Assembly: GCF_964355755.1 (NCBI RefSeq)
Contig: NC_092674.1
Location: forward strand, 19,742,001 to 19,806,000
Source: Antedon mediterranea
Lineage: Eukaryota; Echinodermata; Crinoidea; Comatulida; Antedonidae
Direction: 5' to 3'
DNA length: 64,000 nucleotides
The translations under genes were made by a program, and so were the position numbers. The notes under the pieces are model-generated. The model was not told the DNA's origin. It did no database searches and worked only from the letters and a program-made list of their open reading frames with translations. Positions 3,378-50,000 of the stretch are shown piece after piece. How positions within the stretch are numbered: the stretch's first letter is position 1; every line of letters starts with the position of its first letter.

Positions 3378-3383
3378 TTTATT
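3378..3383 (-). promoter_or_regulatory. Candidate polyadenylation signal of the SIR2/metallo-beta-lactamase gene
   Basis: TTTATT on the + strand reads AATAAA on the minus strand, about 107 nt past the TGA stop at 3490-3492. Position and sequence fit the poly(A) signal of the minus-strand gene. AATAAA is common in such AT-rich DNA, so this rests on position. Confidence 0.45.
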
Positions 3384-3489: not shown

Positions 3490-3776
3490 TCACAAGTTGT
3501 AAAAATCTCCTTCTCTCATTTGGTTTAAACCCATCTTATCTTCGTTAGGCCCTTCTTCGTTCGTACCATATCCTGTGATATAAACTGTTGGACTTTTCTT
3601 ACACTCTTTCATGTACTTTGAAACTTGGTCAAATGAAGCATGTTCATAACTTGAGGATGTTCGTGCATCTACAAGCACTGTTGGTGCCTGGAAAATGCTG
3701 TCATAAACATCTTTGTTGAAGCCAGAATCAGCAGAAAAGCCAAGGATACGCTTACCATTTTGATACAATGTGAAAC
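3490..3776 (-). CDS. SIR2/MBL gene exon 16 (C-terminus, stop)
   Basis: 287 nt ending in TGA. RILGFSADSG corresponds to the F-S-G-D-T/S-G motif with the bridging Asp. EHASFDQVSKYMK resembles the G-H-S/T helix of RNase Z. VYITGYG sits where the family has L-x-L-T-H, so the last metal His is absent. Confidence 0.85.
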
Positions 3777-6700
3777 CTGAGATAAAAGTATTGGTATTGT
3801 TGTTAAAAAAAATAATGTTTATGAGTTGAATGGATTTCACAAGTGAAACTGTTCTTTTCAATGAGGCAAACCTGAATTGAATGAAATGCCACACTAGTCT
3901 CAACAAATGAAATATTCTCCAAATTCATGATTATAAAACATTCATTTATACTGTGTGGGTTGTACCATTTATAACTGCTCTGGTGTTATGTTGTTACAAG
4001 TTTTGAACTTACCATAACAAACTTCACTATGTTGACTTTTGTGTGATATAATATGGAACTTTTCATCAATAGAAACATTTTGACCAGCCTTACAAACATG
4101 CCAAGTAACATACTTGGAAAATTGCTCCTAAATAGAAAAATTCATGAAGAAATATTTTTGCTATTTCTACGTTTCAGTGTTAGGTGCTGATAAAAATGAG
4201 AGTTCAAATTGTGAAAAATAGTAAAATGTGAGAGGAAATACATGTGGCTATTTTATCAAAACATTGTATCTTGTTTTCTGAAATTTACTTTTTGTATTCA
4301 ATATGTTGGCATGGTTACTGTGCTAAATGGCGATATTTTTAGAGCAACAGCCAATAGGAAAGAAAAGTTTTTGTTTTTGTCTTGGTGGCTCATAAGGTTT
4401 TGAACATTCCTGGAAAAATTCTTTGCATGTCATTTTGTATGTCTTCTGCTATTACAGAAATTATTTCCAGTGGATGCAGTAAATTACATTTTTAAATAAG
4501 TTTAAACATGTGGTATTATAAAACCGGCACACAAGCTTTTAAGTGTGTAATTCTGCTGCCTTAAGTACAAAAATTTATTCAGTAAATGCAAAATGTTAGT
4601 ATGCCTTTTATTCTCAAGATTTTACTAGAATAACCCATGTAGCCTACAGGTATTTCAGATATTCTTAATGCGTACCCTTGGAAATGCACTGTATATCTCA
4701 TCAAAGCGATGATCCATCAGCTTCTGTTGTACTTCTGGTCCACAGTATAAGTGAAACTCTGGTTTAAGATTTAGCTTTAACATTTCATCTAATGTGATAA
4801 TCAGGCCCAAAGCTAACTCAGCAGCATGGTCTGTGTGGTTGTGTGTAATGAAGATTCTCTTTGGCAACATGTTACCTGGAAGAAATTTATTGTTAGTTTA
4901 TTGTATTAAAAAACATTGCTATTTTATCGTTTACCATGGATAAATAAGAGAGAAGGATTTGTATTGATCTCAGATAATACATACAATTTCACTTTCTACC
5001 AGCATGTGGACCACCCACAATGTTACAGAATAGAAAACGTCTTTTATCAACACATGCACTGTTGATGACGGAAACTAATATATATATATATGTATTACAT
5101 AAAAGTTAAAGTAGGTTTCTTGAAAACAAATAATTATTATTTTTTGCATGAGCATTATGTACAGCTTTTGCATAAAGTAGTTTACTGATTTCTAGATAGC
5201 TATTTTCAATCAATTTGTGGTATACTCTATAACAGTACAGGATAAAAGCCAACAAACCAATTTTCTCTCTGTAAGACTGAATCACGCCGAGTCCAACATC
5301 AACCAAAAACATAGGTTCTCCTTTTCGCAGAAGTACATATGATGAACTTGGGTCTCCATTTAACACAGCTAAAATACAAACAATAATACTAATAATAATA
5401 ATAATAATTATACTGTATATCATATTTCTGTTCTTTTCCATAAATATATAAAAGTGATGATCTGATTACATTTGAATGGTAGTTTATCAAAACATAATAA
5501 TGTTTGTTGTAAAATTGAAAATAAAATGTAGTAGTCTTTATTTATTCAATTATATTCTAAAATGAAAATATATATTCTATAATAGCTGCTCATATCAACC
5601 ATCTTCATTTGGGAAGGAGTAGTATCATAAATTAGCATGTCATATATATTTGTGTACCACTAAATGAGCATATTTGAATTAACATCAACTCTACTTTAAC
5701 ACTTCTTACACACTAATTTATTATTGAATCATAGACCTACTTGTCGCTCCCTTTCCAGTTCCAAGGCAGAGCAACTGCACATCAGCCTCCTCATCTTTAA
5801 TTGATTTTCCAGCTAGTATAGCCAACGCCTTCTCTGCAGTCGCCCGTACTGAATGGGGCTTCAAACAAGCTTTTAACATGGCTACCATATTTTCACCATG
5901 TTTTTCACAACTATTCTGGAAAATAAGTTGCATATAAATTCCAAATCTAGGTCTTCAGTTTAATCTTAATTTCAAAATCAAGGACACACAATAAAAGTTG
6001 CGAAGACGCATATTAAATCTAGATTTTCATAGCCACCAAAATTAAAAGTAATTCAGCACTATAAACATACAGACATCAAGTTTCTGCATACATAATTGAT
6101 TGCATGAATTTCCTGTGTTACATTATACACAGTAGTATATTACTTACAGGTAGAGCAGGTGCATATGATTGGTCAGTAGCCTTTTTCTCAAAGACGATAT
6201 TTGCGTTGAAATAATCTTCAAATACATATCGTCCCTCAATTGCTTCTATCAGCAAAAGTGCTTAATTAAATAAAATATAAATAGAACAGTAATAATTATT
6301 TTTCAAAAATACATTGCGTGGGCGAGGCATGACAATTTAATTTCGGAAGGATCAACTTTTAGACATATACTGTATACTTTTAGTCTTACTTCAAATTTTT
6401 TATTGTTTATTTATTTATTATTTATTTTTTTTTTTTATTGTTTTTGTCTGCGTCAGTAATAGGTACGCCCTCCACAAGATGTGTTTTTCATCTTTCTGGG
6501 CTTGTACCTTCTTCTTTCGAAATTTGTGTATATATTGTTCATTGAAATCAATTTTGTATATGAAAGGAGAAAATAAATGTTGCTTTGAATTGAATTGAAT
6601 TGAATTCACTTAGGCACTATGAGGCCACTTTAGAAAAAGACAGTTAACACTATAATATTTTTGGATTTATCTCTAAATAGGTTATCAAAAAACAATTACG

Positions 6701-9700
6701 GTAAATCTTCTAATAGTAACCCACATTCTAATAGTAAACCCCTTCTAATAGTAACCCACCTTATAAGTCAATCTATAATAATAACCCACTACTCTAATAG
6801 TAACCCACCTTATAAGTCAATCTATAATAATAACCCACTACTCTAATAGTAACCCATGGGAGTTACTATTAGAGTCACAAAAACTTGATGCAGCCGTATT
6901 TTGAAAATAAGGAGATAATGCATGTTGATCTCGGGAGTGAGTGTTTCTGAGTTTATAAAATAAAGTTCAACCAAATTTGTTTATTCGTACTGTTTTATTA
7001 TTTATGAGTTGCTGACCAGAAGTTGGGGGTGGGTTACTATTTTCAGGTGCCTAATTTAAGATTAGTAACAGTAACCCACTCTAATAGTAACTCCCCTTCT
7101 AATAGTAACTCCCCTTCTAATAGTAACCCCCCTTCTAATAGTAACCCACCCTAAAAAACAATTAAAGAATAATAACCCAGGGTTACAATTAAAAGATTTA
7201 CGGTATTGTTTAGAACTTCTCCTTTTCCCGGCTACAAAATACAAAACACCAGTACCCACCATAGCTATAGACATCTGCTTTAAATGAGTTTATATATACT
7301 AAAGGTAAAAAAGGTAAAAGTTAAAACAACACAAAGAGAATGTCGAAAGATAGTTCTATAGGAAAAAATATGGCAAACTAAAAGTGGGTTTTCAAAATTC
7401 TTAACATTTGAGATGAACCTAAAGTGATATGGACACTGTGTTATAGTATAATTTTATTTATTGAACGTTTTTAATTCCCACAGAAAACCCCTAATTGTGG
7501 TAGCAAATCTTTGAACTTACTCTAGAGATTTAGCTTCTTTTTTGAAAGCTTCAATTATATCTTGCTGTTCACCTTGTAACTCTTTGAGCATCTTCAAGGC
7601 AAACACCTTTCCTTCTCTGTCTGTTACTTTGTAAACTTCTCCAAATGATCCTTTTCCAAGAAGTTTCATAGATTTTGTATCGTATTCGTCACTACTTGAC
7701 AGAATCTGCACATCATGTAAACTTAATAATTTTTCACGAACTGCATCCTGTAAAAAAACAAAATTAAAACCAGTTAATATACAGGCTTTTGTTTTCACCT
7801 AAACAATGTTAATGACAGTAGAAAAGGTAAATAAAAATTATTAATTGGGAACTTGTGTTACCTCTAAAACATGTTCAACATTGTCACATTTGATGACAAG
7901 GGTCAGTAATCGGAGAAGTGAGTTGTCAGAATCCCAACCAACTGAAACACTTGTGTCATATGTGTTCCTCCGTTTGGCAACTTCTTCCCCATTGATAACA
8001 ATAAGATGAGTAGTGACCTTCTTTGAACTTGTTGTAGCAGTATCTGCATAGCAAATTGCTTCATTTACACCACCTGAAGGAACAAAAAGATCCCTTAAAG
8101 AAATTTGATGTTTCAGGAATTTCAATTAGGGAACAAAAATGTTTGGTCACATAATAATTATTCACTTTGACCAAAACTTGGATTTAAAACAAGAATTATT
8201 TACCTAAAAAACTGTAATTTAAAGCAAAAACTAGTAAAATTGCCTGCCAGCCAATGGGTTTCAGTGGAATTTTATCCTTTCATTTTGTCTCTTTTTATAT
8301 TTTTTTTAACAGAAATGATTAACTTTAATAAATCTACAAAAATTCAAAGTCTGATTTTAATCTTCATTATTCATGTTTTTTGGGGGAATAATACATCTTA
8401 CATAATTATATATTAAATTACATTTCTAGAAAAACATGTCAGTCAGGATTAGCAGACAAGTTGTTGTTATCAAAACATTATAAATACTATGTGTGTAGGC
8501 CCTAAAATTGTTAATAAAAAAAATCAATGAGGACACATGGTAATAAAGCGTGGTTCCCACTAGCGACGCAACACAGGGACGTAATGCAACGCAAGTGAAT
8601 TGACCAATCACAAGCGATGGCTTATTCGCTATTTGCTAACTGTCTATAACTTCGCTTGTCATTGGTTAAAACGCTTGCGTTACGTAGTTTACGTCCTTGC
8701 GTTACGTTCTAGTAGAAACCAAGCTTAAAAGTGAAAGGAGTTTATATAGGCTACTATAATGATAATTGTAGTTAAACACAAACCTTTTAATTTAATGTAC
8801 GCGAAAGTGTCGTCTTTCAACCGCTTGTAAGCCTCTGTTCCAATTTCCGCATCAACTATGACCAACTCCAAAGAATTCTTAGTTTTAAGGACAGACTTGG
8901 ATTGGAGTATGACCTCTGCATATTTTCTCAAGGCCATACAACGTTTGTCTTTATCTGGTTGGTGTTCCAATTCCTCAACAACAGCTTGGTAAAGGAATGT
9001 CGCAACTACAGGTGTTTTTCCTAATTCAATTACCTAAAGAAACAATTAGCTTGTTGTTTATTGTTAATTTTTTAATGTATTCAATTGAAAATAATAATGT
9101 TCAAAAAAATGCTTTTTGCTCCTCAAGATTAGTAAATTATTGCTACTATACAGGGGCGGATCCAGCATGTTGGAATAGAGTGGGGGAGGGAGGGGGGGCA
9201 GGTCAGACAGCAAGTACAAAATTTGCTTCGCCACAGCCCCCGCAGCAATCAGCAAATCAGTAATAGTAATTTACAGGCAGTAAAAACACAGACATTGTCG
9301 ACAGTGTTTTGTTTTGCGTTCAATGCAATAATGCTGTACATGGTTAAGGCGATAGGTATATGAAGCTATACCACCCCAACCAGCCTCAGACAAAAAAGCA
9401 CTTGGCATACCAGGAACTAATTTGGCGTAGGAAAAACACCAGGCCTGGCTGCCAACCACCCCCTACTCCCCCACCCTTGGATTCACACCTGTTATACTTA
9501 TTAAGAACTGACGTGAAGCAAACATTACTATAAAATCAGATTTTAAAAAGGATCATTTTGATCCCTAATGTTTTTCTTGAATAACTAAAATAAATATCAA
9601 ATGTAACACTAAAAAGTTGATACATCAGTAGCAATTCAGTAATTTTTTTTTAAAAGACACTTGCATTTAATAGATTTCTTCTTCTACCCTTCATAGCATC

Positions 9701-12700
9701 CATTGCTGCTTCAATTTGCTTCTCTTGGCTTTCTCCTAAAACCCACAAGTGAAACAACCATTACAGAGATTTTCATAAAAAATGTAAAGAAATAATAATA
9801 TGACATTGGCAAGACGTTATTCATTGACTGCAAAAGAATAATTTACCTAATAGTTTAAGTACAGTAGAAAGAAAGAAGCACTGAAAGGACATTATGATTA
9901 AACAAGTCAGGCTGAAGCTATTTTTTCTTCAATCATATAACAATTCATTCAGTTATTACTTCTTCTTTGCTAAACTTTCAACAACAAAAAAGTTATCAAC
10001 TTTTTAAACTTCTGGTTAGTCAATTAAAAAAAAATCTTGTTATTTACCAAAAGGATCATTACGAAAAATTCTTTCTAATGAAGGTTTGGATTCCTTTTCA
10101 AGTAATTCTAGTGTAGTCAGTGCGTTAGTTACTTTTGTTGTATGGAAATGAATTTCTGTTGCAGTTTTCTCCAGAAGAAGTTGTTGAGTTAAATAGTTCT
10201 CACGTTGAGTTGGCAAAAATGAGATCTCACGAATCTAAGAACACAAAATACAAATCTTCTATAAAAGTAGCAGAATAAATGTTTTGGAAAGTAAGCACTT
10301 ATTTATGGAATACTAATAGAGGCATGCTGTTGCCATGAAAAAAATTAACATAAAAGATGGTGGAGATCATGCAGCATGTTATGGATAAAACTCCTGTAGA
10401 TATAGAAGTAGAGCAAATTTCATTTGTGACAACCTCAAAGGTGTATCAAAGAATTGAGTGAGAAAGCACATCCAATGCTGTTATAAATATACAAAATAAA
10501 CTCAAATTTAATATTGATACAAAGGTCAACAGACACAGGTAGATGCTAACCTCTCCAGGGGTAATTTCAGATATTTCTCTGATGACATCCCCACTTTTTA
10601 AATGCAGCACAAATTCCCATAACTCCATATCTGCCATTAATGTTGTAAGTTGACCTTCTTGTTCAATTTCATTTTTATTGCTTTTCAAAAAACAAAAATG
10701 TTCTTTCTAAAAATAAAAATAATTTAAATGATCAATTTCTAATATCCTTTTTGCAGTACATAGGTTACAACTTTATAATAAACTGTATTTAACTAACACA
10801 GTGAAACCTTTCAGTTAAAAATGAGGGTATAACATGCGCATTAACAATGTTTATGTCTGTCACCCCCAAACTTGACCCAATATTGTATTGCTAAAACTTA
10901 CAGATGATGGTGTCACAAATCGCTGAATGAAGTTTTTGTACAGACTGTGTTTAGTATCACAACCAAGAAACAGAACATTTCTGCTGTTGAAAATGTTTGT
11001 AAGTTTGGCTGTCAGTCTGTTCTCCTCCTGGTGCAGCAACTCAAATTGTTTTCTTGATTCATCCTATTTATGTTAAAGTATTTTAAGTAAAAATTAAATT
11101 AATTCACCATTGACAATATTTGTAAAGAAATATGATGTGGAAATGATAATTCAATAAAAAAGCATTAACTTTGTATACATACTGTCACAAACATAGAATA
11201 ACTTTTGTCCCCAAACAACTTAACAATGACCTGCCGGTCAAGATTGTTAACTTCTGGCAATCTTGCAACCTATAAATTAAAAATAGCAAATATCTAACTA
11301 TATATCTCAAAAGAAAATAATTCAAGGATATTTCAATTAAATACAAATAAATACATGTTTCTATATTTCAAAACTAGAAGTTTAAAAAAAGTGACAGTGA
11401 ATATATTATTTTAAGAAAATTTTATTTTCAATTATCTAATCTAAAGCCGGGAGAACTTTAACCACATACTGTATGTTATGTGCAATCTGAACAAGGATTT
11501 CCTTTTTAGAAAGATACCAATATAAGGATTTTGTTGTGCAAAAATACTTAATTCATATTGGGCAGGAAATTTCAAATTGGGCAGGAAATTTCAAATTGCG
11601 CAAGTACTGTATTTTGAGTATTTGATCCCAAAGCTTACTTTTTAATATCCAAATCAATAAATATTGCAAGTAATAATATTTATTAATAATTACTTATAGA
11701 ATAAAATGTTAAAAATATAAAGAATAAACAATTTTTGTTATGTTTTAATAAGAGAGACAAAAAATTGAATGGAAAATTAGGCCTACTTTCAGAGAGGCTG
11801 TGATCCTCTCGCCCTCTTGCCGCTGCGTGGATGTTATGATGAACTAATATTGCGTTGGTATTTTATGCCAATATGAATGTGGGGCTTCCCCTTTTTATGC
11901 CTACTAAGTTTCAAGATTAAAAACATTTTATTGGTCTACTTAAAATGGAAATTCATTTTTTTTAGCATTTAAGACAATAAAACATTACAAAGAAAAATCT
12001 CAAATTACAAACATGCTATAGGCCTAGGCCAATGTTAAAATAATGTTAATTAGGCCAATGTTAAAATACTTATCACAATATTTTTTTGTTTGTTCAAATT
12101 GCGCAGCGCAATTTGAAATTTCGCAAGGCAAATATCTGTGCAATTCAAATTGCGCAAAAAAATTCTTGCGCAAATCGTTCAAATTGCGCATAACATGTTT
12201 TATCCCATAAGAGGTAAACACGAGGCCTACTAAGTTGTTAGTGACAAGGGGTAGCACACCTTTTCCACAATTTTTTTATTTTTTATCATTATCTTCACTC
12301 TCGTGTCTTGTAATGTATAGCATTTGCAGCAAATATTAAATCAAACCTTGATCATTACCTGTTCCAATGTAATTTTATCTCCATCTGTTCCAGATTTCCA
12401 CAAAAAGTGCTCCAATAATTCATCAATATTTGTGGTGAAAATGATAGGAACTTTACCAAGCATGCGAATGGCACCATGGAAACGAGATTGCCGAGCTTCT
12501 GGAGCATTGTCTCTGATGTAACGATTTTCAAGATCAGAAATCTTCTCTCTTGTCAACTATAAGGTCAACATTATTGTTAGCGCACTGTCAATCAACCTGG
12601 CCAATTTTAATCTTTAACTAGATTTGAAATCGTCACTTTGACGAGTTCGGGTTATCCGTGCAAACGCAACATGCAATTACGTTAAAATATCAACGGCAAC

Positions 12701-15700
12701 AATTATGCCATCCTATGAAATGAATTAAATATATTGACAGTGCTGAATTGTACCTATTTTGTGTCATAAAGCATAACAGTATTTACGAAATACACTGTAT
12801 ATGTTATATACAGTGTAGACTTGCCCCAAGTCTGTATTATCTTTTTTTTTTATTTATTTGTTTTTATTTCGACCGCGATTTTTGTCTGAAAATACAGACT
12901 TGTGAAACACGTATAGAAATCGATTTGCAGGCCGCAAACATACCATAAGAATGACGTAGGTTATCATACCGTATTTGGCTATATGGGGCGGGCGGTATGT
13001 AAATATGGATTTCGAATCAACCAATTATCATTTTTTTTCAAAATGAAAGAGATCGAGTACGTAGGCCTACCAGTGCTTAATGTACGATCGAGACTGTTGA
13101 AATATAAAATAGTAATGCCAAGTTGTTTTGTTAATTAATTGTTTAGTCCTTGGCCTAGGCCTCTTTCCTAGGTCCTACTCAACTCGCACGTATGACCTGC
13201 CAAATAAAACGCCAATGAAGTAGGCCTACATACCACCGGCACACAACAGGGCTACACCACCACACAGAACAGGACAGGGCCGGGTCTGGGTGGGAATTAA
13301 ATCAAAATTATCTCCGCGTAATAAATGATCCATTCAATGTTTGATTTGCGGAGAAGCTAGCCTATCAAGTATCATATATCAAGACGAGTTTTCATGTTTC
13401 AAAGATCCCATCAAATGTTTACCAGACTACTAGGCATATAAAATAATTTCTAGCCTTCAGAACTTTCATAAATGTACCCAAGTACACATTGTCTAAACGT
13501 AACGGCGCATGCGCATCATCTTAGTTGTTGAGTCTTTGAAATTCTTAAATATGAATATTTAAACGGTGTACGAGAGAGTAGCCAATCGCATGCAGCTGAA
13601 ACTAGTCAACCGGATAATCGTATGCACCAAGAATTCTTGGTGTCAAACCACGTGACTTGTGCGTGTTTCCCCAGACGGAGTATCCAAAATCAAGTAGTAT
13701 ACGTATGAAACGCCATATGTGCCAAAATATTTATCTTTTAACTAATATTAAGACAAAACTCCGTCTGGAACCCAGACTATATACAGTGTAGCATAGATGA
13801 AATTACGAGACCCATCTTTTAATCCAATTTTTAACATGATGTCATCAAAATGAAACACGTCGATAGCAATTTTGGAAGGAAATTATCGGAGCAACAACAT
13901 ATCAACATGTTGAAGAAATTTGGATACGTAAAATATGGAAGCGCGCTCTTTTAAATGTCATGAACTATGAAGCAAAATATGAAATTACTTTTATAATTGA
14001 ACTGGCCATATGATGACGTCACAACATCCGATGCGAATAATTTGTACATGAATTCGTATCTACAATTCAACAGCTTCCAGAAAATGACTTAATCATGAGT
14101 ATCACTTTTTATTCTGAGGAGCTATAGCATATTGAAATTGATTGGAAAGATGAAAATAAGTGACAGGATGACGTCATAAAAATTTTAAAAACGGTATATC
14201 ATGCGAAAGATAATTGATTGACCTAGACAATATCAAAATATGGGGGGAAATGGAATACGGATAAGTGGAGATGTGCTCAGACTATTAAATGTGATGAGCT
14301 ATGACGAAAGAGACAAAAATCCTATATTTTATATTTGAATAGCCATACGATGACTTCACAATGTCTGGTTAGCCATAATAATGCATGATCCGATATCTAC
14401 AACTTAACAACTTCCAGAATGTGTAATAAAAATAAACTTCACCATGTACTAGAATCTATGACTGTTTAAAAAAAGGCCTAATTTTGACAATTTTTGGAAC
14501 TTCTTCTTAAAAAACACGTGCGAATTGTCCAATTCGAAGTGTTCGTATGACGTGATTATAAGTCGAAATTGTTTAAAAGTTGGTAAAATTACTAGAAAAG
14601 GCTAGAAAAAAAAAAATTCATGCTAAAAACGTTAAAAAAAAAAAAAAAATTTGCATGCGCGTGGAAATTTGTATATGCTTAAAATGACATGAAATGCGTA
14701 GAAAAGGGATTAGAATTTGATTTTTCGCATTTTAACATTTTAAACACGCATACGCGCAGAATTTTATGTGCAACACGCCATTTTTACTTGAAGGGAATTT
14801 GACCCTTGATATGATTTATCATTTTCTCAAGTTTCAATAACAAATTTAAGATAAATTTCAAAAAATCGTATAGCAGGCCCGTAGCCAGGGGGGTTTTTTA
14901 TGGTTCGGGCGAACCTCCCTTTTACAGCAACCCCCCCCCCCCCCCTTTTACAGCAAACCTCCCCTTTACAGCAAACCGACTGCGAACCCCCATCCCCGAC
15001 ATGCCTAGTACCTCACCCTCATCTCCGAAAATCCTCCAAATACGTGCCCCACAGTAAAAAAGTTGTTTGTAAATTGAAAAATTTGTAAACTCGTTCGTGA
15101 ATAACTCATACAGTATACCTAATTCTTCCCTGTATGAGCGTACTTCGAGCGATAGTGTCTGTAAATTTCTAAGAGTTGCAAATGAATTGCCGATTTTAAC
15201 CTGAAAAATAAATGTTTGGTCCGTGCATGTAACATGATATTCACGCGTATCAGCAAGCTGGGACACGAACGATTCGTACAAAGGACACCGCAAGACAACT
15301 GTGTACCTATTGTTTAGATCACTGGCAGTCAGGCAGCATGCATAAAGTATATAGCCTTCCGACGTACATCATTATTTATGTGTGGCTATGAAATATAATG
15401 TATCATCATCATAGAGGATTAGTGAATATTAATATATTACACATAATATCTATGGTGGTATCATGTACTGTAGTTCACATTATGGCATCAGATTATTTGT
15501 TTCTAGACCACCAGCCGATACGTACTCAACTGTATCAATATCACCTATTTACATTGGCATATTTAATTTTCTCAACAAAGTGCTGTAAATAATTATTATA
15601 GATAGAGCTATAATAAGAATTGAATTTGCCTTCACCCAGTGTGCTTTTTTCGGGGCTTCTTCTAGACGTACGTTCGCATTGAACTTGAACGCAAAACAAA

Positions 15701-18700
15701 ATACTGAGTGAATGATCAACCAATCGGCAATTCCGCACAGAGCACGCGCATCTAAAGCCTGTTTTTCTGTCGACGTTATTCGACGCCATCGTTGTTGATC
15801 GTTAACGATCGTTTGAAAACGATTAAATGACAACGATAGCGAGTACCTTTTCCTGTAAATCATTAACATTTTAATTTTAACCTAGAAGATCGCCGATTAT
15901 TGTTAACGATACCGTCGAATAACGTTGACATACATACGGCAACAAATGTTATCGTCCATTAAATAGTCCACGGTCCAAGTACGATCGTTTTGCTCATTGG
16001 TAGCATGCTGCATGAGAGTGTCTTTTCCGGCCATCTAGGGGTGTCATTAAAAAAAATTTGCTTCGCCTCAGGCCACACCCCCAAGGGGGGGGGGGGGGGG
16101 GTGACCCAAATACTTAGTGTCCGAACCCCCCTTGACACATCCTGGCTACGGCCCTGTATAATCATGCGTCAACTTGGACAGCACCAAAAACCTTATTACG
16201 ACATCTTCAGATAGAGGTCAATCTTATAAAGATATAAAATGTTATGTTGAGAAGATTTAGAGATACACATGCAACAAAATTTGTGGAAAGAAAGAAGAAT
16301 AAGATAAAAAAAAAATATCCTGACAATAACAAGGGGTTATCCGCCAAGTGCGGATAACCAAAAAATATTGCAGATTATATTCATAATATTGTCCATCTGA
16401 ATAATAATTGTTTGAACTTCTTATACTTCAATAGAGCAATTAGTTTTTCACTTTGACCAAAATTGGATTGAAAAAAATGTGTTTAACTAAAAAAACTGTA
16501 ATTTAAAGTTAGATGCTATAGAGGCACCATTTACCAAAGGTAGGCCTAATTATTATACATGAGCACTGTAAGCATATTCATATTTTAAGAAGGTCAATAG
16601 GTCACCTCAACGTATAGAGCGCAGATAGCATGCACCGTGTGTGTGATTTTCATATGTGTGTGATTTTCATATGTTTTTCCTTTTCGTGTATCTAAGAGGC
16701 CTAAATAATGTTGTGTTTCTGGTGTCGGTAGTCAGTTTGGTATTTGTTAAGGAAACTATGATTTTATATCAGGCTTGTGAGTTTTTATTTTTAATTAAAT
16801 AGACATGACCCTAATAAACCTATGATATAGCCAACCAATTAAATGGTACCTAACTATTTAATAACACAGTAAAGTGTTGCTTATCACAATTTCAGTTAAC
16901 TTTCACATAATAAACACAGTAAAGTGGTGCTAATCACAATTAAATGGTGGTGTCTCAGCATGGAGGTATACCTCCATGGTCTCAGTTACCTTGTATTTAA
17001 ATCCCCCTTCCCTACGTTTTTTAGATCTAATTTAAGATCACAAACTATATTTAATGTAAAAATAATACTATATGGTCCTATTGCGATAACTTTTTTCGTC
17101 TTTAAACGGTTAAAAATGTGAAAAATAAGTCGATTCTAATAATTATAGCGGCCCGCTATAAATCCCAAAATGCATTGCGCGCGGATTGATATTTTTGTTT
17201 TTCATCTGTAATTCGCCCACTTTTCGATCGATCGTGAGGCCAAAACAAATGGAAGACAATTAATGCAGCAACTATACAACGTCAGGCTAGGTATATAGCT
17301 AGCGTATGATGTTCGTACGTTACCAATGTTTACCAGCTAGGCCTACAAAACTAAGCCTAGCTAGGCTAGGCCTAAGACTGTCCACGAGAGGTCGATCGCC
17401 GCGAGCTACTTAGGTAGTGCATAGTTTCTCACTTTTTATCATAATTTACCATAAAACGTACATTTAAGACAAGGAATGACATGGTTTAATGTTTTTAAAG
17501 TGATATATATGTATTATTTTCTAAAAAACGTCCAAAATTGCAGGGAAGGGGTCTTTAATAAACACATTAAAAAGTGGTGCCGATCACAAATAAATGGTCC
17601 GATACCTCAGTTAAATTTTATTTAATAAAGCAGTAAAGTGGTGTTTATCACAATTAAATGGTGCCTCAGTTAACTTTTATTAAAATAACACAGTAAAAGT
17701 GGTGTTTATTAATAAAAGTTAACGGAGGCACCATTTAATTGTGATGGGCACTACTTTATTGTGTTTATTAATTAAAAGTAGGTACCATTTACTTGGTGGC
17801 TATATCATAGGTTTATTAGGGTCATGTCTATTTAATTAAAAATAAAAACTCAAAAGAGCCAGATATAAAATCATGTTATGTTATTTCAATATGATGGAGA
17901 TAGCAGAGGTAGACTGCACAGAGAGACAGACGTTACACGACACATGGATGATGAAGTCTACCTATCACGTGTTGTGCGCTGCACGAACGACGATAGCCGA
18001 CGACGGTCGGCTATTTACCCGGATTGTCTATTTTTCGATAGGGTGTACTTTTCATTAAAAAGGAACATAGTATCTTCAATGAATGACGTCTTAATCTTAT
18101 CAAAATCAAATATTTATGCGTTATGCATTTTAGAATCTGCCAATTTAATGTAGTTTCATATTTTACCCTTAATAAACTTTCCTCGTGCGTGCAGTGCGTC
18201 AGTAGAGTATACAAAACAACATTCAAAAAAATGGTAGAGTCTAACAGAGATTTAACTAAACACACACATTATGCATTTTATTGCGGACTATTAATACAGC
18301 TAGCTGAGCAGGGCCGGCCGCCGACTTCTGTGTTGTTGTTGTGTATAAATAATCGGGATGGTATAAGTTTCTCCCCCTGACAGAAACGCTTTGGCGCAGC
18401 CTGAGGGATGGAAAGACGTGGTACTCCGTGCTTTGGCCTAAATTATCTGTACGTTCAACAACGATACGAGTGTTCATTTGCTAGGAATTGTCCTCAATAT
18501 TTTTAGCATACGACGTACATATTTTATAGGCCTAGGCCGCCGCTACTGCACTTTCGCAACTCTTGAGCATACCCACTTTAAAAACATTCACCGGCTGCAC
18601 GGCGGTGACGGTGAGTGTCAGTGACCGTGAAGTCTTAGGACACGATTTTCGCCTGGTGGGTACGGAAGCCATCAGACAAATGACCAGCCAACCGTAAAAA

Positions 18701-20641
18701 ATAAAAATAACATAGCGTTCAGGGGATTTCAGAAAACTGTAAAATGTTTCTTATTAAATTCATAACTGTATGAATCCTGTATGAATAAAACCATTTTGAA
18801 CAATTGTTTGATCATTGTTATAAAATACAACGAAAATGATTATTTTTAATATAGTGATTTAGGCATGGCTCTCTCTCTCTAAATGCCTTACAAAAACCAT
18901 TATTTAAAACATTTTTTATTTTGGCTAAAAACCAGTTCATTTGGCTAAAAAAAAAAATTGAACTTTAGCCATTTTGGCTATAGATATTAAACTGATTTGA
19001 CTGAAAAAAATATTTTGATTTTCGCCAAAAGGCTAAACAAAATGAAATGTTAGTGCTACCCCAGTTACTTGCTGCTGCAACCACTTTTATTTTTCAAGGC
19101 TACAGTGCATCTTCTCATAAAATAATCGCCGTGGCTAAAGATACGGTACTGTATCCATACTTCTAAAAACTAAAGGTACGTTAATTATAAATTGCATTCC
19201 TAAATCTGGATCCTTAATATAAAACTCATTCCTAAATATTAAACTCGTTCCTAAGTATTAAAAACCTAACCCTCTAAATAATAAATAATAATAATAAATT
19301 AAAAACTAAAAAAAAAAAAAGACCATGCAACTTATTCCATTGCCCCAAAGACCCACATCATAGTTCATTTACTACTAACCAGAAATGTAAGAAAAATTAA
19401 AATACTGTATCATAGGTCTGCTTTTGAATGAAACAGGGTTCACCCCTCACAAGAGACCAATTGTTGGTTGGCTACTATTCTGGGTTCCTGACAGAGTTTT
19501 GTTTTAATATTAGGTAAAAGATAAATATTTTGGCACATATGGCTTTTCATATGTATACAACTTGAGCTTGGATATTTCAGACAAAAATCGGAATAAAAAC
19601 AAATAAATAAAAGACAAGTCTAGTAGGCAACTTACAATTCATTCTTTGGTAAATAAAATAAAAGACAAATTTCAAACTTTAATTAAATAGGATGTTGGAA
19701 TGGTCCAGTAGAAGGCTACCGTTCAGACCAAATGAAGACATATGATACTGAGCAAACACAATCCATCCAATATAGGTTATGGAATATGGGCGGCCATTAG
19801 GGCCAAAATAGACAAACGTTGCTTTACGAACAATTCCGCTTCCGTAAGCCAAACAAATGGCGTTAAAAAGACATTATCCACTCCTGTAAGCCAAACAAAT
19901 GGCGTTAAAGACATAATTCATCGAGTGACAAACAAATATTGCTGTACGGACAAACGCACACATTGCCGTATGAACAAATTGCCGTTCATACAGCAATGTG
20001 TGCGTTTGTCCGTACGGCAAAATTTGTTTGTCACTCGATGAATTAGGTCTTTAACGCCATTTGTTTGGCTTACAAGAGCGGATAATTGTCGTATTCGATT
20101 TAGACTTTCACCGTTGAGTACAGTTTTTCCGTTGAGTACTTCTTTAACGGAGAATTTTGAGCGTTGAGATTGTTCTTAACGAAAAAGCTTTCGTTGTCAA
20201 CGTTTTCTATTCGAATGACTTTCTGTTGAGCACAAATTTACAATTCAAATACAAAAAGTACTCAACGAATCTTTACGTTGACAACGAAAGTTCCCAATCG
20301 AATACGACAATTGTCTTTAACGCCATTTGTTTGGCTTACATACAAGAGCGGATAATGTCTTTAACGCCATTTGTTTGGCTTACGGAAGCGGAATTGTTCG
20401 TACGGCAACGTTTGTCTATTTTGGCACTAATGGCCGCCCATAATGGAAGACATTTTTTGTAGGCCTACGGTATTACCTGAGGATTATCAGCATCTACATG
20501 GCCCCACCACTGATCAATCGTGGCTGCACGAGGTAGAGCAGATTCACCCTCTCCTATAACAAGTAGCAATTCCTTTTCTTTTATGAGCTTACGGAGATCT
20601 TTTACCCCATCGAAAAGTGTTCTATTGTTACGACCTTCCAT
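3490..20641 (-). CDS. Multidomain protein: SIR2-like domain, middle region, protein-kinase N-lobe, metallo-beta-lactamase domain
   Basis: Sixteen exons were built by eye from splice sites and phase: 20641-20477, 12556-12359, 11269-11183, 11063-10902, 10706-10551, 10234-10048, 9735-9659, 9033-8784, 8073-7862, 7747-7521, 6260-6148, 5915-5741, 5368-5258, 4875-4676, 4127-4013 and 3776-3490. Residues 1-256 form a SIR2_2-like NAD-binding fold: GEGES at 30-34, TTNID at 96-100, KLFGD at 138-142, FLGCD at 182-186. Residues 257-498 are an unrecognised helical then alpha/beta region. Residues 499-574 are a kinase N-lobe with GKGSFGEV at 529-536, K550 and E569. The last ~333 residues are an RNase Z-like metallo-beta-lactamase with HNHTDH. 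All junctions are in phase except exon 10 to 11 (phase 2 into 1), so an exon is missing from my model, the gene is damaged, or these are two genes. The SIR2 His is Phe and the final metal-site His is Gly. Intron 1 is 7.8 kb, mostly transposons. Known SIR2-like NADases cleave NAD; activity here is unproven. I know no named orthologue. Confidence 0.7.
4013..4127 (-). CDS. SIR2/MBL gene exon 15 (third metal His)
   Basis: 115 nt, phase 0 in and 1 out. HIISHKSQHSEVCYG supplies the conserved His before the S-x-x-Y/F-G strand of the family. Confidence 0.75.
4676..4875 (-). CDS. SIR2/MBL gene exon 14 (HxHxDH metal motif)
   Basis: 200 nt, phase 1 in and 0 out. RIFITHNHTDHAAEL carries the full HxHxDH zinc-binding signature of metallo-beta-lactamases. 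Confidence 0.9.
5258..5368 (-). CDS. SIR2/MBL gene exon 13 (MBL domain)
   Basis: 111 nt, phase 1 in and 1 out. GDPSSSYVLLRKGEPMFLVD and the following GLGVIQSYREKIG match the S-S-x-x-L and L-V/I-D-x-G strands of RNase Z-like enzymes. Confidence 0.75.
5741..5915 (-). CDS. SIR2/MBL gene exon 12 (helical repeat, first MBL strand)
   Basis: 175 nt, phase 0 in and 1 out. The helices MVAMLKACLKP and ATAEKALAILAGKS look armadillo-like (weak), then VQLLCLGTGKGAT is the first beta strand and glycine turn of a metallo-beta-lactamase fold. Confidence 0.75.
6148..6260 (-). CDS. SIR2/MBL gene exon 11
   Basis: 113 nt with donor gtaagt and acceptor ttaattaag. The open frame (LLLIEAIEGRYVFEDYF onward) needs phase 1 from upstream, whereas exon 10 leaves phase 2. 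It reads in frame into exon 12. Confidence 0.6.
6470..6606 (+). repeat. L2/CR1-like LINE 3' tail
   Basis: The end reads ataaatgttgctttgaattg followed by a short (GAATT)n run, typical of 3' ends of L2/CR1 LINEs. It lies between exons 10 and 11 of the SIR2/MBL gene, where the kinase C-lobe would be expected. No LINE coding sequence remains. Confidence 0.5.
6700..7195. repeat. Inverted arrays of a ~12-bp TAATAGTAACCC repeat
   Basis: Tandem, variable copies of taatagtaaccc occur at about 6710-6860 and 7060-7150, with the reverse complement (gttactattag) near 6858-6873 and 7033. Part of the left array is duplicated (segments near 6770 and 6820 are almost identical). It behaves like a foldback element in the intron between exons 10 and 11. 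Confidence 0.6.
7521..7747 (-). CDS. SIR2/MBL gene exon 10 (protein-kinase N-lobe)
   Basis: 227 nt from a ttttttacag acceptor to a GA|gtaagt donor (phase 2). It encodes the glycine loop GKGSFGEVYKV, the ATP-binding Lys in FALKML and a downstream Glu in KKEAKSLE for the Lys-Glu salt bridge. No HRD or DFG motif exists in the next 1.2 kb. Read through without splicing, the frame stops at 7517-7519, so an isoform ending here is possible. Confidence 0.8.
7862..8073 (-). CDS. SIR2/MBL gene exon 9
   Basis: 212 nt, phase 1 in and 0 out. Contains a beta strand THLIVINGEEV and a helix LLRLLTLVIKCDNVEHVLE. Function unknown. Confidence 0.75.
8546..8726. mobile_element. Short MITE with imperfect terminal inverted repeats
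   Basis: Left end aagcgtggttcccactag and right end ctagtagaaaccaagctt are imperfect inverted repeats, and GACGTAA/TTACGTC motifs are mirrored inside. It lies in intron 8 of the SIR2/MBL gene. A related left-end fragment is at about 63057-63098 and more distant similarity is near 36950-37090. Confidence 0.6.
8784..9033 (-). CDS. SIR2/MBL gene exon 8
   Basis: 250 nt, phase 0 in and 1 out, with a tttctttag acceptor. Helices are followed by strand NSLELVIVDAEI. Not assigned to a family. Confidence 0.75.
9149..9480. mobile_element. Possible hAT-type MITE remnant
   Basis: Begins tacaggggcggatccagcat, the kind of end common in non-autonomous hAT-like elements, followed by a G-rich tract and 'tttgcttcgcc', also seen near 16065. 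The right end is not defined. Confidence 0.35.
9659..9735 (-). CDS. SIR2/MBL gene exon 7 (helical linker)
   Basis: 77 nt, phase 1 in and 0 out. ESQEKQIEAAMDAMKGRR is strongly helical. The donor is weak (AGT|gtctt); it was chosen because it alone keeps the frame into exon 8. Confidence 0.6.
10048..10234 (-). CDS. SIR2/MBL gene exon 6 (helical linker)
   Basis: 187 nt, ending in phase 1 (gtaaat donor). It encodes an amphipathic, Gln/Glu/Leu-rich stretch, probably helical or coiled coil. No family recognised. Confidence 0.7.
10551..10706 (-). CDS. SIR2/MBL gene exon 5
   Basis: 52 codons, phase 0. It begins KEHFCFLKSN, resembling the last strand (H-y-f-l-v) of SIR2_2 domains, then a helix ELWEFVLHLKS, and ends the SIR2-like region. 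Confidence 0.75.
10902..11063 (-). CDS. SIR2/MBL gene exon 4
   Basis: 54 codons, phase 0, donor gtaagt. A charged helix is followed by RNVLFLGCDTKHSLYKNF, which fits the strand and turn (F-L/V-G-x-S/D) that closes the SIR2_2 Rossmann fold. Confidence 0.8.
11183..11269 (-). CDS. SIR2/MBL gene exon 3 (K-L-F-G-D, catalytic His replaced)
   Basis: 29 codons, phase 0 at both ends. VIVKLFGDKSYSMFVT aligns with the SIR2 strand normally read as K-L-H-G-D; Phe stands where the general-base His is expected. Confidence 0.8.
12359..12556 (-). CDS. SIR2/MBL gene exon 2 (TTN-x-D catalytic motif)
   Basis: 66 codons between ttatag and gtaatg splice sites, phase 0 at both ends. The strand VPIIFTTNIDELLEHF carries the TTN(x)D signature of the SIR2 fold; its Asn is catalytic in SIR2 NADases and deacylases. 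Confidence 0.85.
14875..15115. repeat. Dispersed repeat, also present at 62925-63045
   Basis: Starts with ggcccgtagccagggggg, then a C-rich tract. Positions 14993-15110 are about 80-90% similar by eye to 62925-63045 in the same orientation (shared catccccgacatgcc, ctccaaatacgtgcccca and cgtgaataactc). An ORF of 123 codons on the minus strand here is broken in the other copy, so it is unlikely to be a gene. Confidence 0.55.
15769..15929. mobile_element. Small MITE with 17-bp inverted repeats
   Basis: gtcgacgttattcgacg at 15769-15785 is mirrored by cgtcgaataacgttgac at 15913-15929, and nested gttaacgat/atcgttaac motifs lie inside. It sits within the second non-B block of the element at 12618-16359. 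Confidence 0.55.
16030..16160. mobile_element. hAT-like MITE fragment
   Basis: Contains tttgcttcgcc, a poly-G tract and the terminus ctggctacggccctgtat, the complement of the tacagggccgtagccag end seen in many non-autonomous hAT-like elements. Similar ends occur at 14877 and 56995. Confidence 0.45.
16758..17874. mobile_element. 1.1-kb foldback element with ~95-bp terminal inverted repeats
   Basis: The left arm (atgattttatatc, then aattaaatagacatgaccct) is repeated in reverse complement at the right end (agggtcatgtctatttaatt, then gatataaaatcat, ending 17874). Inside each arm are several copies of a ~45-bp unit around cacagtaaagtggtg and cacaattaaatggt in both orientations. The centre (17060-17560) is unique and carries a palindromic ctagctaggc stretch. 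No ORF. Lies in intron 1 of the SIR2/MBL gene. Confidence 0.75.
17878..19785. other. Intronic spacer without recognised features
   Basis: Part of intron 1 of the SIR2/MBL gene. Overlapping ORFs of 60-90 codons at 17873-18380 occur in several frames on both strands and show no conserved motif. Short ggctaaa repeats occur at 18920-19040. Confidence 0.4.
19786..20441. mobile_element. 656-bp composite foldback element next to exon 1 of the SIR2/MBL gene
   Basis: Outer inverted repeats start atgggcggccatta at 19786 and end taatggccgcccat at 20441, running inward about 100 bp and including a twice-repeated gccaaacaaatggcgtta motif. An inner near-perfect hairpin (caatgtgtgcgtttgtccgta) is centred near 19978. 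A second foldback with arms cgtattcgatt and ctttcgttgtcaacg spans about 20085-20310. The right end is 35 bp from the exon 1 boundary at 20477. Confidence 0.8.
20477..20641 (-). CDS. SIR2/MBL gene exon 1 (start codon, Rossmann-type glycine motif)
   Basis: The ATG is the complement of 20639-20641; 55 codons follow to a CAG|gtaata donor. The segment LIKEKELLLVIGEGES is a basic helix, a hydrophobic strand and a glycine turn, as at the start of SIR2-like domains (usual form G-A-G-x-S). Phase 0 out. Confidence 0.75.
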
Positions 20642-22149: not shown

Positions 22150-23897
22150 AACTCATACTGTAGGTACTCATACTGTAGATACTCACACTGTAGATACTCA
22201 TACTGTAGATACTCATACTGTAGATACTCATACTGTACTAGTACTCATACTGTAGGTACTCATACTGTAGATACTCATACTGTAGGTACTCATACTGTAG
22301 ATACTCACACTGTAGATACTCACACTGTAGATACTCACACTGTAGATACTCATACTGTAGATACTCACACTGTAGATACTCATACTGTAGATACTCATAC
22401 TGTAGGTACTCATACTGTAGATACTCATACTGTAGATACTCATACTGTAGATACTCATACTGTAGATACTCACACTGTAGATACTCATACTGTAGGTACT
22501 CATACTGTAGATACTCATACTGTAGGTACTCATACTGTAGATACTCATACTGTAGGTACTCATACTGTACTAGTACTCATACTGTAGATACTCATACTGT
22601 AGGTACTCATACTGTAGATACTCATACTGTAGATACTCATACTGTACTAGTACTCATACTGTAGGTACTCATACTGTAGATACTCATACTGTAGGTACTC
22701 ATACTGTAGATACTCATACTGTAGGTACTCATACTGTACTAGTACTCATACTGTAGATACTCATACTGTAGGTACTCATACTGTAGATACTCATACTGTA
22801 GATACTCATACTGTAGATACTCATACTGTAGGTACTCATACTGTACTAGTACTCATACTGTAGATACTCATACTGTAGGTACTCATACTGTAGGTACTCA
22901 TACTGTAGATACTCATACTGTAGATACTCATACTGTAGATACTCATACTGTAGGTACTCATACTGTAGGTACTCATACTGTAGATACTCATACTGTAGAT
23001 ACTCATACTGTAGGTACTCATACTGTAGGTACTCATACTGTAGGTACTCATACTGTAGATACTCATACTGTAGGTACTCATACTGTACTAGTACTCATAC
23101 TGTAGATACTCATACTGTAGGTACTCATACTGTAGGTACTCATACTGTAGATACTCATACTGTAGGTACTCATACTGTAGATACTCATACTGTAGGTACT
23201 CATACTGTAGGTACTCATACTGTAGATACTCATACTGTAGATACTCATACTGTAGGTACTCATACTGTAGGTACTCATACTGTAGGTACTCATACTGTAG
23301 ATACTCATACTGTAGGTACTCATACTGTACTAGTACTCATACTGTAGATACTCATACTGTAGATACTCATACTGTAGATACTCATACTGTAGATACTCAT
23401 ACTGTAGGTACTCATACTGTACTAGTACTCATACTGTAGATACTCATACTGTAGGTACTCATACTGTAGGTACTCATACTGTAGATACTCATACTGTAGG
23501 TACTCATACTGTAGATACTCATACTGTAGATACTCATACTGTAGGTACTCATACTGTAGATACTCATACTGTAGATACTCATACTGTACTAGTACTCATA
23601 CTGTAGGTACTCATACTGTAGATACTCATACTGTAGGTACTCATACTGTAGATACTCATACTGTAGGTACTCATACTGTACTAGTTAGTACTCATACTGT
23701 AGATACTCATACTGTAGGTACTCATACTGTAGATACTCATACTGTAGATACTCATACTGTAGATACTCATACTGTAGGTACTCATACTGTACTAGTACTC
23801 ATACTGTAGATACTCATACTGTAGGTACTCATACTGTAGGTACTCATACTGTAGGTACTCATACTGTAGATACTCATACTGTAGATACTCATACTGT
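22150..23897. repeat. 15-bp minisatellite (tactcatactgtaga/g) of about 115 units
   Basis: Near-perfect tandem units differ mainly at one A/G position (gatac or ggtac) and occasionally C (cacactg) in the left third. About every 80-330 bp a junction reads tactgtactagtactc, where a unit is shortened to form a small palindrome. Being a multiple of three, the array stays open in several frames and gives a spurious Ser/Met/Tyr ORF on the minus strand. Confidence 0.95.
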
Positions 23898-26393: not shown

Positions 26394-26466
26394 GGCTTCT
26401 TGGCGTAGTGGTTATCACGTTTGTTTAACACGCAGAAGGTCCCCGGTTCGAGACCGGGCGAAACCT
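26394..26466 (+). tRNA. tRNA-Val(AAC)-like sequence, probably a degenerate copy
   Basis: 73 nt with D-arm GTAGTGGTTATCAC, anticodon loop TTAACAC (anticodon AAC) and a perfect T-arm (CCCGG TTCGAGA CCGGG). The acceptor stem GGCTTCT against CGAAACC has two mismatches, so it is probably a pseudogene or tRNA-derived repeat. Confidence 0.6.
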
Positions 26467-26662: not shown

Positions 26663-26735
26663 GGTTTCGTAGTGTAGTGGTTATCAAGTCTGCTTAACAC
26701 GAAGAAGGTCCCCGGTTCGAGCTCTGGCGAAACCT
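26663..26735 (+). tRNA. tRNA-Val(AAC)-like sequence, second copy
   Basis: The acceptor stem GGTTTCG/CGAAACC pairs perfectly, with the Val D-arm GTGTAGTGGTTATCA and anticodon loop TTAACAC. The T-arm (CCCGG TTCGAGC TCTGG) has a mismatch and a G-T pair, and the anticodon stem one mismatch. The ~40 bp after the 3' end match those after the first copy, showing both came from one duplicated unit. Confidence 0.6.
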
Positions 26736-33500: not shown

Positions 33501-35009
33501 ACAGGAACCGAAAGAACATCTGTAATGTTACGTTTGTGTTGGGTGAAAGTACTTACTGACCAGCCACCAGAAGGATTCTTGAAGGTATATGATGCTGAGG
33601 ATTTGTTTGAACAGACCATTCAAAAGGTATGTTATTATTTAGGATCAGACGACTGTCCCTTCAAGACACAGTTTTAATAGGTTTCAGTCAAATGTAAAAA
33701 ATGGTAAATCTACATTTATAAATACTTATAACTTTGATGCTGAGATTTTGTTTATAGGCCTATGACAGAATAATAGACCCTTTTTTTCTGTTTTTGTTTC
33801 ATCCAGAATCCAACACGTTTGCCACACCAAGTGTCTGACGAAGCCAGCTTTAGAAGCCATCATCCCATGGAAATGACCAGACAACGAGCCTATGAGGAAG
33901 ACTCGCAAAAGTATGATTCTGGGTCAAGTAAACCTCAACAGCAATCGAAAAATGATCCTACTGAAATGGAATCTTCTTCAGGTAATTTAGATCTTCCATG
34001 TGAACCAGAATCTTCAGATGTACCAGTAGTAGCATCTAAGCTTCCTTTTAATGAATGGCAGTCTCAATCTGATGCACCTGGGTACTTAACAGACACAGAT
34101 ATTACAGCTCCAGCTAAAGATGTCAATAATGAGTATGTTGATGAAGTGAATGGTGTTGGACCAAAAGCTGGGATATCTGCAGCTAACAAAGTAAGTAATG
34201 CCAGGATGTCCAGGAATTCTGTTTTCTAAATGCTATTGTGTTAAAATCCTGTTTTAGAGAACAACTTTCTGTTTTGTTTTATATAGAATACACATCTGCC
34301 ACACCAAGTTTCTAGTGAAGAACAAGTTAATGATGAAGGCCAGAAATCTGATCCAAACAAACCTCAACGGGAATGGCGAGATGGTCCTACTGGAATGGGA
34401 GGGGAATATGTTCCTGTAGAATCAAATTCTTCCTCAGATAATATAAATCGACAAGAACCAAAACCATTTTCAGGTGTAAAACTACCTTGTAATGAAATGC
34501 AGTCTGAAGATGGGATTAGTTCTCTGAAGTCAAATCTATCTGGAGGTCTAACTAACATACAATATACAAGAAATGTTAGTAGTGGCCCAGCAGCACTGTT
34601 GCAAACAAATGGAGGTCAGACAAAAAGTAAAATAGCCTCAACCACCTCTACAGTATCCTCAGCCAGAGAAGTTGATAATAGTTATGTTACAGAAGTTCAG
34701 GGTGTTGGACCAAGTGGGACATCGGGAATCCATTCTAATGTGGAGAGACAGAAAACTCAAGCCAAAGAAGTTGATAATAGTTATGTTACAGAAGTTCAGA
34801 GTGTTGGACCAAGTGGGAGATCAGGAATCCATTCTAATGTGGAGAGACACAAAATGGAAGCCAAAGAAGTTGATAATACTTATGTTGGAGAATCCAATGC
34901 AATTGGACCAAGTGGGACATCAAGAATCCATTCTAATGTGGAGACACAGAAAAAAACTCAAGCCAAAGAAGTTGATAATAGTTATGTTGGAGAATCCAAG
35001 GCAGTTTGA
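27421..35009 (+). CDS. Unrecognised 565-residue protein with C-terminal 33-residue Tyr-Val repeats
   Basis: Five exons, all phase 0: 27421-27594, 28157-28264, 33318-33626, 33807-34190 and 34287-35009. The ATG follows an acceptor (tatgcag at 27401-27407), so a 5' UTR exon must lie upstream. Residues 1-94 are helical and basic. Residues 95-197 look like a compact beta-rich domain (TLTLRFCKYI, then MLRLCWVKVL). Residues 198-565 are polar, low-complexity and probably disordered. Exons 4 and 5 both begin with an LPHQVS segment, implying exon duplication. Residues 451-565 are three full 33-34-residue repeats plus a partial one, each with EVDN(S/T)YV and (S/A)(V/I)GPSG; a degenerate NNEYVDEV unit occurs in exon 4. 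No signal peptide, membrane segment or known domain seen. The regular Tyr-Val-x-Glu spacing could be a docking array, which is inference only. Intron 2 (5.05 kb) holds the nested Helentron-like elements. Confidence 0.7.
28157..28264 (+). CDS. 565-residue gene, exon 2
   Basis: 36 codons between ttttgcag and gtaagt. Includes TLKIIVHIALKEKQKVE, a strand-helix pair. Confidence 0.75.
28679..31830 (+). mobile_element. Helentron-like element B1, split by B2
   Basis: B1 is 28679-28728 plus 30314-31830 (about 1.57 kb). Start agttatccgc with matching gcggataact; end tgcggataacta, stem-loop actcgtcaaagtgacgagt, acatgtctag, then T. Interior shares nearly all its sequence with B2, for example gcacctcctatttttgaatg. 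Confidence 0.75.
28729..30313 (+). mobile_element. Helentron-like element B2, nested in B1
   Basis: A complete 1585-bp copy: start agttatccgcttagtagcgg preceded by TTTTT, end gcggataacta, hairpin, catgtctag followed by T. Same family and orientation as B1. Confidence 0.8.
32810..32876 (+). repeat. tRNA-like sequence inside element A copy 2
   Basis: A box tggctcggtggtc at 32812-32824 and B box gttcgagtctc at 32856-32866. Less decayed B box than in copy 1. Not a foldable full tRNA. Confidence 0.5.
33318..33626 (+). CDS. 565-residue gene, exon 3
   Basis: 103 codons between cattgcag and gtatgt. Best-folded part of the protein, with alternating hydrophobic strands and Cys at FCKY, NKCL and RLCW. 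No family recognised. Confidence 0.8.
33807..34190 (+). CDS. 565-residue gene, exon 4
   Basis: 128 codons, phase 0. Ser/Gln/Pro-rich, ends with a degenerate repeat around NNEYVDEVNGVGP. Its start resembles that of exon 5. Confidence 0.75.
34287..35009 (+). CDS. 565-residue gene, exon 5 (repeats and stop)
   Basis: 240 codons and TGA. The 99-bp repeats run 34662-34760, 34761-34859, 34860-34961 and a partial 34962-35006. Confidence 0.8.
   Translation, partial: NTHLPHQVSSEEQVNDEGQKSDPNKPQREWRDGPTGMGGEYVPVESNSSSDNINRQEPKPFSGVKLPCNEMQSEDGISSLKSNLSGGLTNIQYTRNVSSGPAALLQTNGGQTKSKIASTTSTVSSAREVDNSYVTEVQGVGPSGTSGIHSNVERQKTQAKEVDNSYVTEVQSVGPSGRSGIHSNVERHKMEAKEVDNTYVGESNAIGPSGTSRIHSNVETQKKTQAKEVDNSYVGESKAV

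Positions 35010-38864: not shown

Positions 38865-50000
<11,136 letters not shown>

Follow-up and report, generated by a model that had tools for sequence, protein, structure and literature searches.

A crinoid gene model joining a SIR2-like domain, an interrupted kinase domain and a metallo-beta-lactamase domain

On the minus strand of a 64-kb stretch of Antedon mediterranea DNA (hereafter the window, part of contig C5 in a genome of 354 Mb and 18 contigs), 18 exons with GT-AG introns were modelled between positions 20641 and 3490, and they very probably fuse three domains in one gene, namely a SIR2-like domain, a kinase domain and a metallo-beta-lactamase domain. As anatomy this gene is real. 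Its presence of introns and the size of the genome make a eukaryotic, animal origin very likely. The reading that we tentatively prefer is a fused sensor or scaffold built from immunity-type domains, of which the assembled sequence represents a copy with a deletion in the kinase, be it an allele, an assembly gap or a case of decay. The damage to this copy is of equal concern to the proposed sensor role, because the core of the kinase is gone and the reading frame is broken at that place.

Gene model and unity of the gene

The exons (Table 1) occupy the strand and the interval given in the first-pass annotation of this DNA. Splice phases agree at 16 of the 17 junctions, and the sole exception is the step from exon 11, which exits in phase 2, to exon 12, which is entered in phase 1. 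The chosen frame contains no stop codon in any of the 18 exons compared to 51 and 82 stops in the other two frames, a zero that is partly due to construction because open exons were picked. The G+C content is 38.2% in the exons and 33.2% in the introns. For exon 9, a start at 9033 was rejected since it gave stops; the start at 9020 restores the phase. With the kinase core absent and the phases clashing there, in silico splicing of all exons stops at 573 amino acids, soon after the kinase N-lobe, and never reaches the lactamase. The product of about 900 residues that had been expected earlier is thus not encoded by the assembled copy. If exons 11-13 are skipped in silico, an open frame of 787 residues results, which joins the SIR2 domain and the orphan region behind it to the lactamase.

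Exon 14 carries both the end of the kinase and the start of the lactamase, and therefore these two domains belong to one gene. This finding strengthens the earlier proposal of a single transcription unit, and it is very likely that the SIR2 domain and the kinase also reside in one gene. A highly improbable alternative would be two neighbouring genes, one for SIR2 and the orphan region (exons 1-10) and the other for kinase and lactamase (exons 11-18). In favour of such an arrangement, exon 11 has an in-frame ATG a few codons ahead of the glycine loop. However, merely 114 bp separate exons 10 and 11, AATAAA or ATTAAA was not found in this intron, the phase is 0 on both of its sides, and exon 11 is open from its first base and preceded by the good acceptor gtttttttacag. 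The gene is present in a single copy as far as the genome search sees. All eight places found in the 354 Mb with the SIR2-to-orphan part (E<=0.01) and all five found with the lactamase part (E<=1) are the gene's own exons; these searches were six-frame and single-exon, are weak for split exons, and give copy counts that are lower bounds. No other SIR2_2 gene was found in the genome at E<=0.001, and at E<=10 only exon 5 of the same gene appeared (E 6.2). The kinase N-lobe had six other weak matches (E 0.029 to 0.82), as expected for kinases generally.

Two repeat structures accompany the 5' part of the gene. Intron 1 contains inverted, mutually complementary repeats (19877-20462, with words such as CCAAACAAATGGCGTTAAAGAC), which by eye have the look of a foldback mobile element. 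A 15-bp minisatellite with the unit ACTCATACTGTAGAT (22151-23897, about 115 copies, 91% matches) lies 1.5 kb upstream of exon 1.

Table 1. Exons and associated features of the gene model
Feature	Position	Strand	Basis or remark
Exon 1: ATG, GEGES (putative SIR2 glycine loop)	20477..20641	-	Open; in phase with exon 2; donor gtaata
Exon 2 (32 nt), putative	12681..12712	-	In phase
Exon 3: SIR2, TTNID	12359..12548	-	Within SIR2_2 match
Exon 4: SIR2, KLFGD, Phe in catalytic His column	11183..11269	-	SIR2_2 profile, alignments
Exon 5: SIR2, FLGCD	10902..11063	-	SIR2_2 profile
Exon 6: SIR2 end, start of orphan region	10551..10706	-	SIR2_2 match stops here, at residue 226
Exon 7: orphan region	10048..10234	-	Open; phase fits; no Pfam match
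Exon 8: orphan region	9688..9735	-	Open; phase fits
Exon 9: orphan region	8784..9020	-	Open; phase fits; acceptor directly before 9020
Exon 10: orphan region	7862..8073	-	Open; phase fits; 114-bp intron to exon 11
Exon 11: kinase N-lobe (GKGSFGEVYKV, ALK, EAKSLE)	7521..7747	-	Pkinase profile, PDB kinases
222-bp gap in place of kinase core, phase clash	7299..7520	-	
Exon 12 (39 nt): kinase subdomain IX, FKADVYSY	7260..7298	-	roco4 match starts here
Exon 13: kinase C-lobe	6148..6260	-	Ungapped roco4 alignment across junctions 12/13 and 13/14
Exon 14: kinase C-lobe end, metallo-beta-lactamase start	5741..5915	-	Kinase matches, RNase Z models
Exon 15: lactamase	5258..5368	-	Lactamase_B, RNase Z models
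Exon 16: lactamase, HNHTDH	4676..4875	-	Profiles, alignment
Exon 17: lactamase, third metal-site His	4013..4127	-	Alignment
Exon 18: lactamase Asp (SADSG), Gly for the last metal His (ITGYGT), stop codon	3490..3776	-	Alignment
AATAAA polyadenylation-like signal	3378..3383	-	About 107 nt past the stop; AATAAA/ATTAAA common in the AT-rich DNA here

SIR2-like domain and orphan region

The Pfam profile SIR2_2 (PF13289) matches protein residues 101-226, encoded by exons 3-6, with 50.3 bits (E 3.6e-13, cut-off 24.5), and the motifs TTNID, KLFGD and FLGCD lie inside this match in consecutive exons. Three of the four SIR2_2 motifs named in the first-pass annotation are thereby secured. The fourth, GEGES in exon 1, is a plausible candidate for the SIR2 glycine loop (GAGxS NAD loop); its exon is located 7.8 kb upstream of exon 2, in the right phase and with a fitting motif. 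A profile built from three SIR2 proteins of the ThsA type gives exons 1-2 a score of 0.1 bits, which six of 200 shuffles exceed. With the same profile, the upstream part of the product (567 aa) obtains 31.7 bits versus 33.7 bits for exons 3 onward alone (264 aa), so that exons 1-2 contribute nothing visible. Since the glycine-loop exon is unproven, binding of NAD by the predicted domain is uncertain.

Residue assignments in this domain, as in the lactamase, derive from low-identity alignments of four sequences each. The motif TTNID, with the catalytic Asn in TTN, aligns with TTNYD in all three plasmid SIR2 relatives, and KEHFC in exon 6 aligns with R[EQ]HYC. The column of the catalytic His (K.HGD), which is His in each of the three relatives, is occupied by Phe in KLFGD, and FLGCDTKHSL replaces the F[LIV]GFSF.DPN of the same relatives. 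According to a PDB sequence search, this Phe stands at the column altered in the entry KomC(H146N), a variant that is presumably inactive. With the catalytic His gone, destruction of NAD by this domain is improbable, and an active NADase would not be expected from its sequence.

Relatives of the domain were found among proteins of bacterial defence. A PDB search with the SIR2 part (E<=10) returned three KomC-type sequences and one RPB11 and nothing else; the best KomC match has an E value of 0.00095, and KomC is the sole SIR2 protein matched in this database. In the PADLOC defence library, ThsA ranks best (E 9.7e-7), followed by weaker profiles that include Argonaute-associated SIR2. Twelve plasmid records also contain relatives, which singly are weak (E 0.1 to 0.9). 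An annotated TIR gene adjoins SIR2, like in Thoeris, in two of the three that were fetched, and the third record carries no annotation; the three relatives are named ThsA-type because of the TIR gene next door in these two. At the level of sequence, the anti-phage SIR2 connection suggested earlier is thus borne out.

Behind the SIR2 domain, exons 6-10 encode roughly 270 residues that form an orphan region. No convincing relatives of this region were found in Pfam (best E 0.077) or PHROGs (best E 0.11). Plasmids yielded one match at E<=10 (E 8) and phages none, and a scan of the genomes of bacteria and archaea, which reaches close relatives only, gave 16 pattern matches of which not one was confirmed. 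A SLOG family domain, which was looked for behind SIR2, was not found by Pfam in the orphan region, where a strongly diverged domain would escape detection.

Kinase and metallo-beta-lactamase domains

The glycine loop, Lys and Glu in exon 11, which had led to the earlier designation as a kinase N-lobe, correspond to positions 3-49 of the Pkinase profile (E 4.2e-4; 20.2 bits, under the cut-off of 31.7), and in the PDB exon 11 matches kinases, with STK24 as the best (E 6.6e-4). This designation holds for exon 11 and is too narrow for the gene, which also contains the end of a C-lobe in exons 12-14. The latter matches positions 175-258 of the Pkinase profile weakly (E 0.065) and residues 207-265 of roco4 in the PDB without gaps and across two splice junctions (E 0.0019). 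It also aligns with residues 188-253 of B-Raf, and kinases or pseudokinases account for 32 of the 33 PDB sequences found at E<=10, the remaining one being a dehydrogenase. The kinases matched are roco4, B-Raf and RAF1, ILK, MLKL and two others, most of which we take to be TKL-type. The N-lobe and the C-lobe end each match kinases independently. What is absent is the profile from about position 50 to 174, comprising the catalytic loop, DFG and the activation segment, in whose place 222 bp lie between exons 11 and 12. Strict HRD, DFG and APE patterns have no match on either strand within the 64-kb window. A search for an extra exon that rescues the frame, which covered the 222-bp gap except for its first 30 and last 40 bases, yielded a single canonical candidate of 17 nt that is not convincing.

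The exon with HNHTDH, recognised earlier as metallo-beta-lactamase, indeed belongs to a Lactamase_B_2 domain (Pfam, E 3e-8, 33.9 bits, cut-off 27), and a Lactamase_B match includes exon 15. RNase Z models match with E values of 6.2e-13 and 1.3e-10, the best at 48.5 bits versus an NCBIfam cut-off of 252, and are followed by a model of a cyclic nucleotide-degrading phosphodiesterase (E 1.7e-9, far below its cut-off). In an alignment with three bacterial relatives, HNHTDH, the following His and the metal-site Asp (SADS) are kept, and the last metal-site His, present in all three fetched relatives, is replaced by Gly (ITGYGT). Given the residues that are kept, some hydrolase activity is possible. 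Thirteen plasmid records contain relatives of the lactamase part (best E 0.003), and its PDB matches are weak, with PNGM-1 as the best (E 0.013). A designed repeat protein, which was the top PDB row for a shorter lactamase query (E 0.012), was dismissed as a chance match. The PADLOC models gave no match to the lactamase part at E<=1, and the one pattern match in viral contigs failed confirmation.

It is rather unlikely, in our estimate, that the fusion gene formerly functioned and now decays in this lineage, or that the sequenced animal carries a null allele, with the kinase core deleted, the frame broken and catalytic residues lost. The missing stretch of the kinase profile and the phase clash coincide, short direct repeats occur in the next intron after the break, and both the SIR2 and the lactamase domains have changes in their active sites, all of which would suit such a process. 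On the other hand, the 18 exons, although chosen as open, show neither a stop codon nor a further phase clash, and the kinase glycine loop, ALK, HNHTDH and TTN have been retained, which random decay would not favour. An assembly gap, in which about 125 codons and their introns would have been lost between exons 11 and 12 while the kinase of the animal is intact, is unlikely. It would account for two recognisable kinase ends in the right order and would predict a phase clash, but the window contains no N and the 222 bp are ordinary AT-rich sequence. Such a gap is compatible with our preferred reading of a fused sensor or scaffold, with which it agrees in everything save for the frame break.

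Possible function and relation to known systems

A NADase or nuclease role is not supported, considering that other residues stand in place of the SIR2 His and of one metal ligand of the lactamase, and that the kinase lacks its core. An immune effector with active NADase and nuclease is very unlikely, even though KomC, an NADase, is the nearest SIR2 protein of known structure, ThsA is the best defence profile, and the lactamase resembles RNase Z and next the phosphodiesterase model. The Phe in place of the SIR2 His, the FLGCDTKHSL segment and the replacement of the last lactamase His all speak against it.

The fused sensor or scaffold could operate as follows. A SIR2 domain of the ThsA/KomC type, the orphan region, a TKL-type kinase and an RNase Z-like lactamase are, in this order, very probably fused in an intron-rich animal gene. 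The SIR2 domain would bind NAD or a derived nucleotide without cleaving it and might serve for sensing or assembly. Its state would be relayed to the lactamase via the kinase-like domain, and in stress or immunity the whole might function as a scaffold for signalling, in the manner of a pseudoenzyme. This mechanism is held even more tentatively than the reading of which it is part. The losses of catalytic residues and the broken kinase also fit plain decay. From the assembled copy, one would expect either a protein of SIR2 plus a stub or, by skipping of exons 11-13, the 787-residue SIR2-lactamase. Given the lost kinase core and the frame break, orthologues would have to reveal the functional form of the protein, should there be one. 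A more far-reaching and quite improbable version would make the gene a hitherto undescribed animal sensor for immunity or stress, with a catalytically silent SIR2 of the anti-phage type that would read NAD-derived nucleotides and, through a TKL pseudokinase, control an RNase Z-like effector. If true, a nucleotide-signalled defence system of the bacterial kind would have an animal counterpart contained in one protein.

Among known systems, ThsA of Thoeris is similar in that the SIR2 core aligns with the three plasmid ThsA-type relatives and the ThsA profile is the best PADLOC match. Here, however, Phe replaces the catalytic His, no SLOG-type domain was detected, kinase and lactamase are fused to SIR2, and the gene has introns. 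No TIR gene that could represent a ThsB-type partner was found among the nine neighbouring open frames (Pfam, E<=0.01). KomC, the NADase of the Kongming system, is the only SIR2 that the PDB search by sequence identified, but differs from the multi-domain fusion of Antedon, which has Phe in place of His146. The TKL kinases (roco4 and the RAF family) resemble the C-lobe end, whereas the assembled gene lacks the catalytic core. RNase Z and other Lactamase_B_2 proteins share HNHTDH and the Asp, whereas here the last metal His is Gly and the scores are far under the RNase Z cut-offs.

Other animal proteins with SIR2-like domains have been described. In PMC12700824, FAM118A/B are presented as vertebrate SIR2_2 proteins close to anti-phage sirtuins and are called vertebrate-specific, H206 and N163 are given as active-site residues, and the published figure for identity to human FAM118 is at least 41%. 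The Antedon gene likewise encodes an animal SIR2_2 protein but has Phe in the His column, and the word "lactamase" is absent from the main text of that paper (PMC12700824). The SAMD9 family, according to PMC5445408, consists of multi-domain animal proteins with a variant Sir2-like domain and a link to antiviral responses. The domains that underlie this family are AlbA_2, STAND NTPase, TPR and OB-fold, none of which appears in the Pfam results for the Antedon gene. No animal SIR2-kinase-lactamase protein was found in titles and the starts of abstracts in open PubMed Central among the matches listed, a scope confined to open literature, so that a predicted protein with such a composition may already be on record without a name. 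The novelty is the combination; the individual domains are of known kinds. Conservation in relatives would mean that non-vertebrate animals have fused a bacterial-immunity-type SIR2 with a kinase and a lactamase in one polypeptide, and would provide an example of an immunity-type SIR2 domain retained without the catalytic His. This bears on the extent to which nucleotide-based immune signalling has been reused in animals. Even as a decayed copy, the fusion would be a marker to seek in related genomes.

The remainder of the window contains further features. On the minus strand, LINE-like pieces (41300-46100) include an Exo_endo_phos endonuclease domain (44920-45327) with reverse-transcriptase-like frames close by. 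Exons of major-facilitator type transporters, from one or two genes, are found on the plus strand, with 40201-40473 over the Sugar_tr cut-off and a weak match at 49159-49488. A 99-bp repeat (34661-34988, 3.3 copies) lies within the plus-strand open frame 34287-35006, which has no Pfam match at E<=0.01 and possibly belongs to a repeat-bearing gene. Two tRNA-like genes, also on the plus strand (26394-26466 and 26663-26735; Rfam, 35 bits each), are situated about 200 bp apart.
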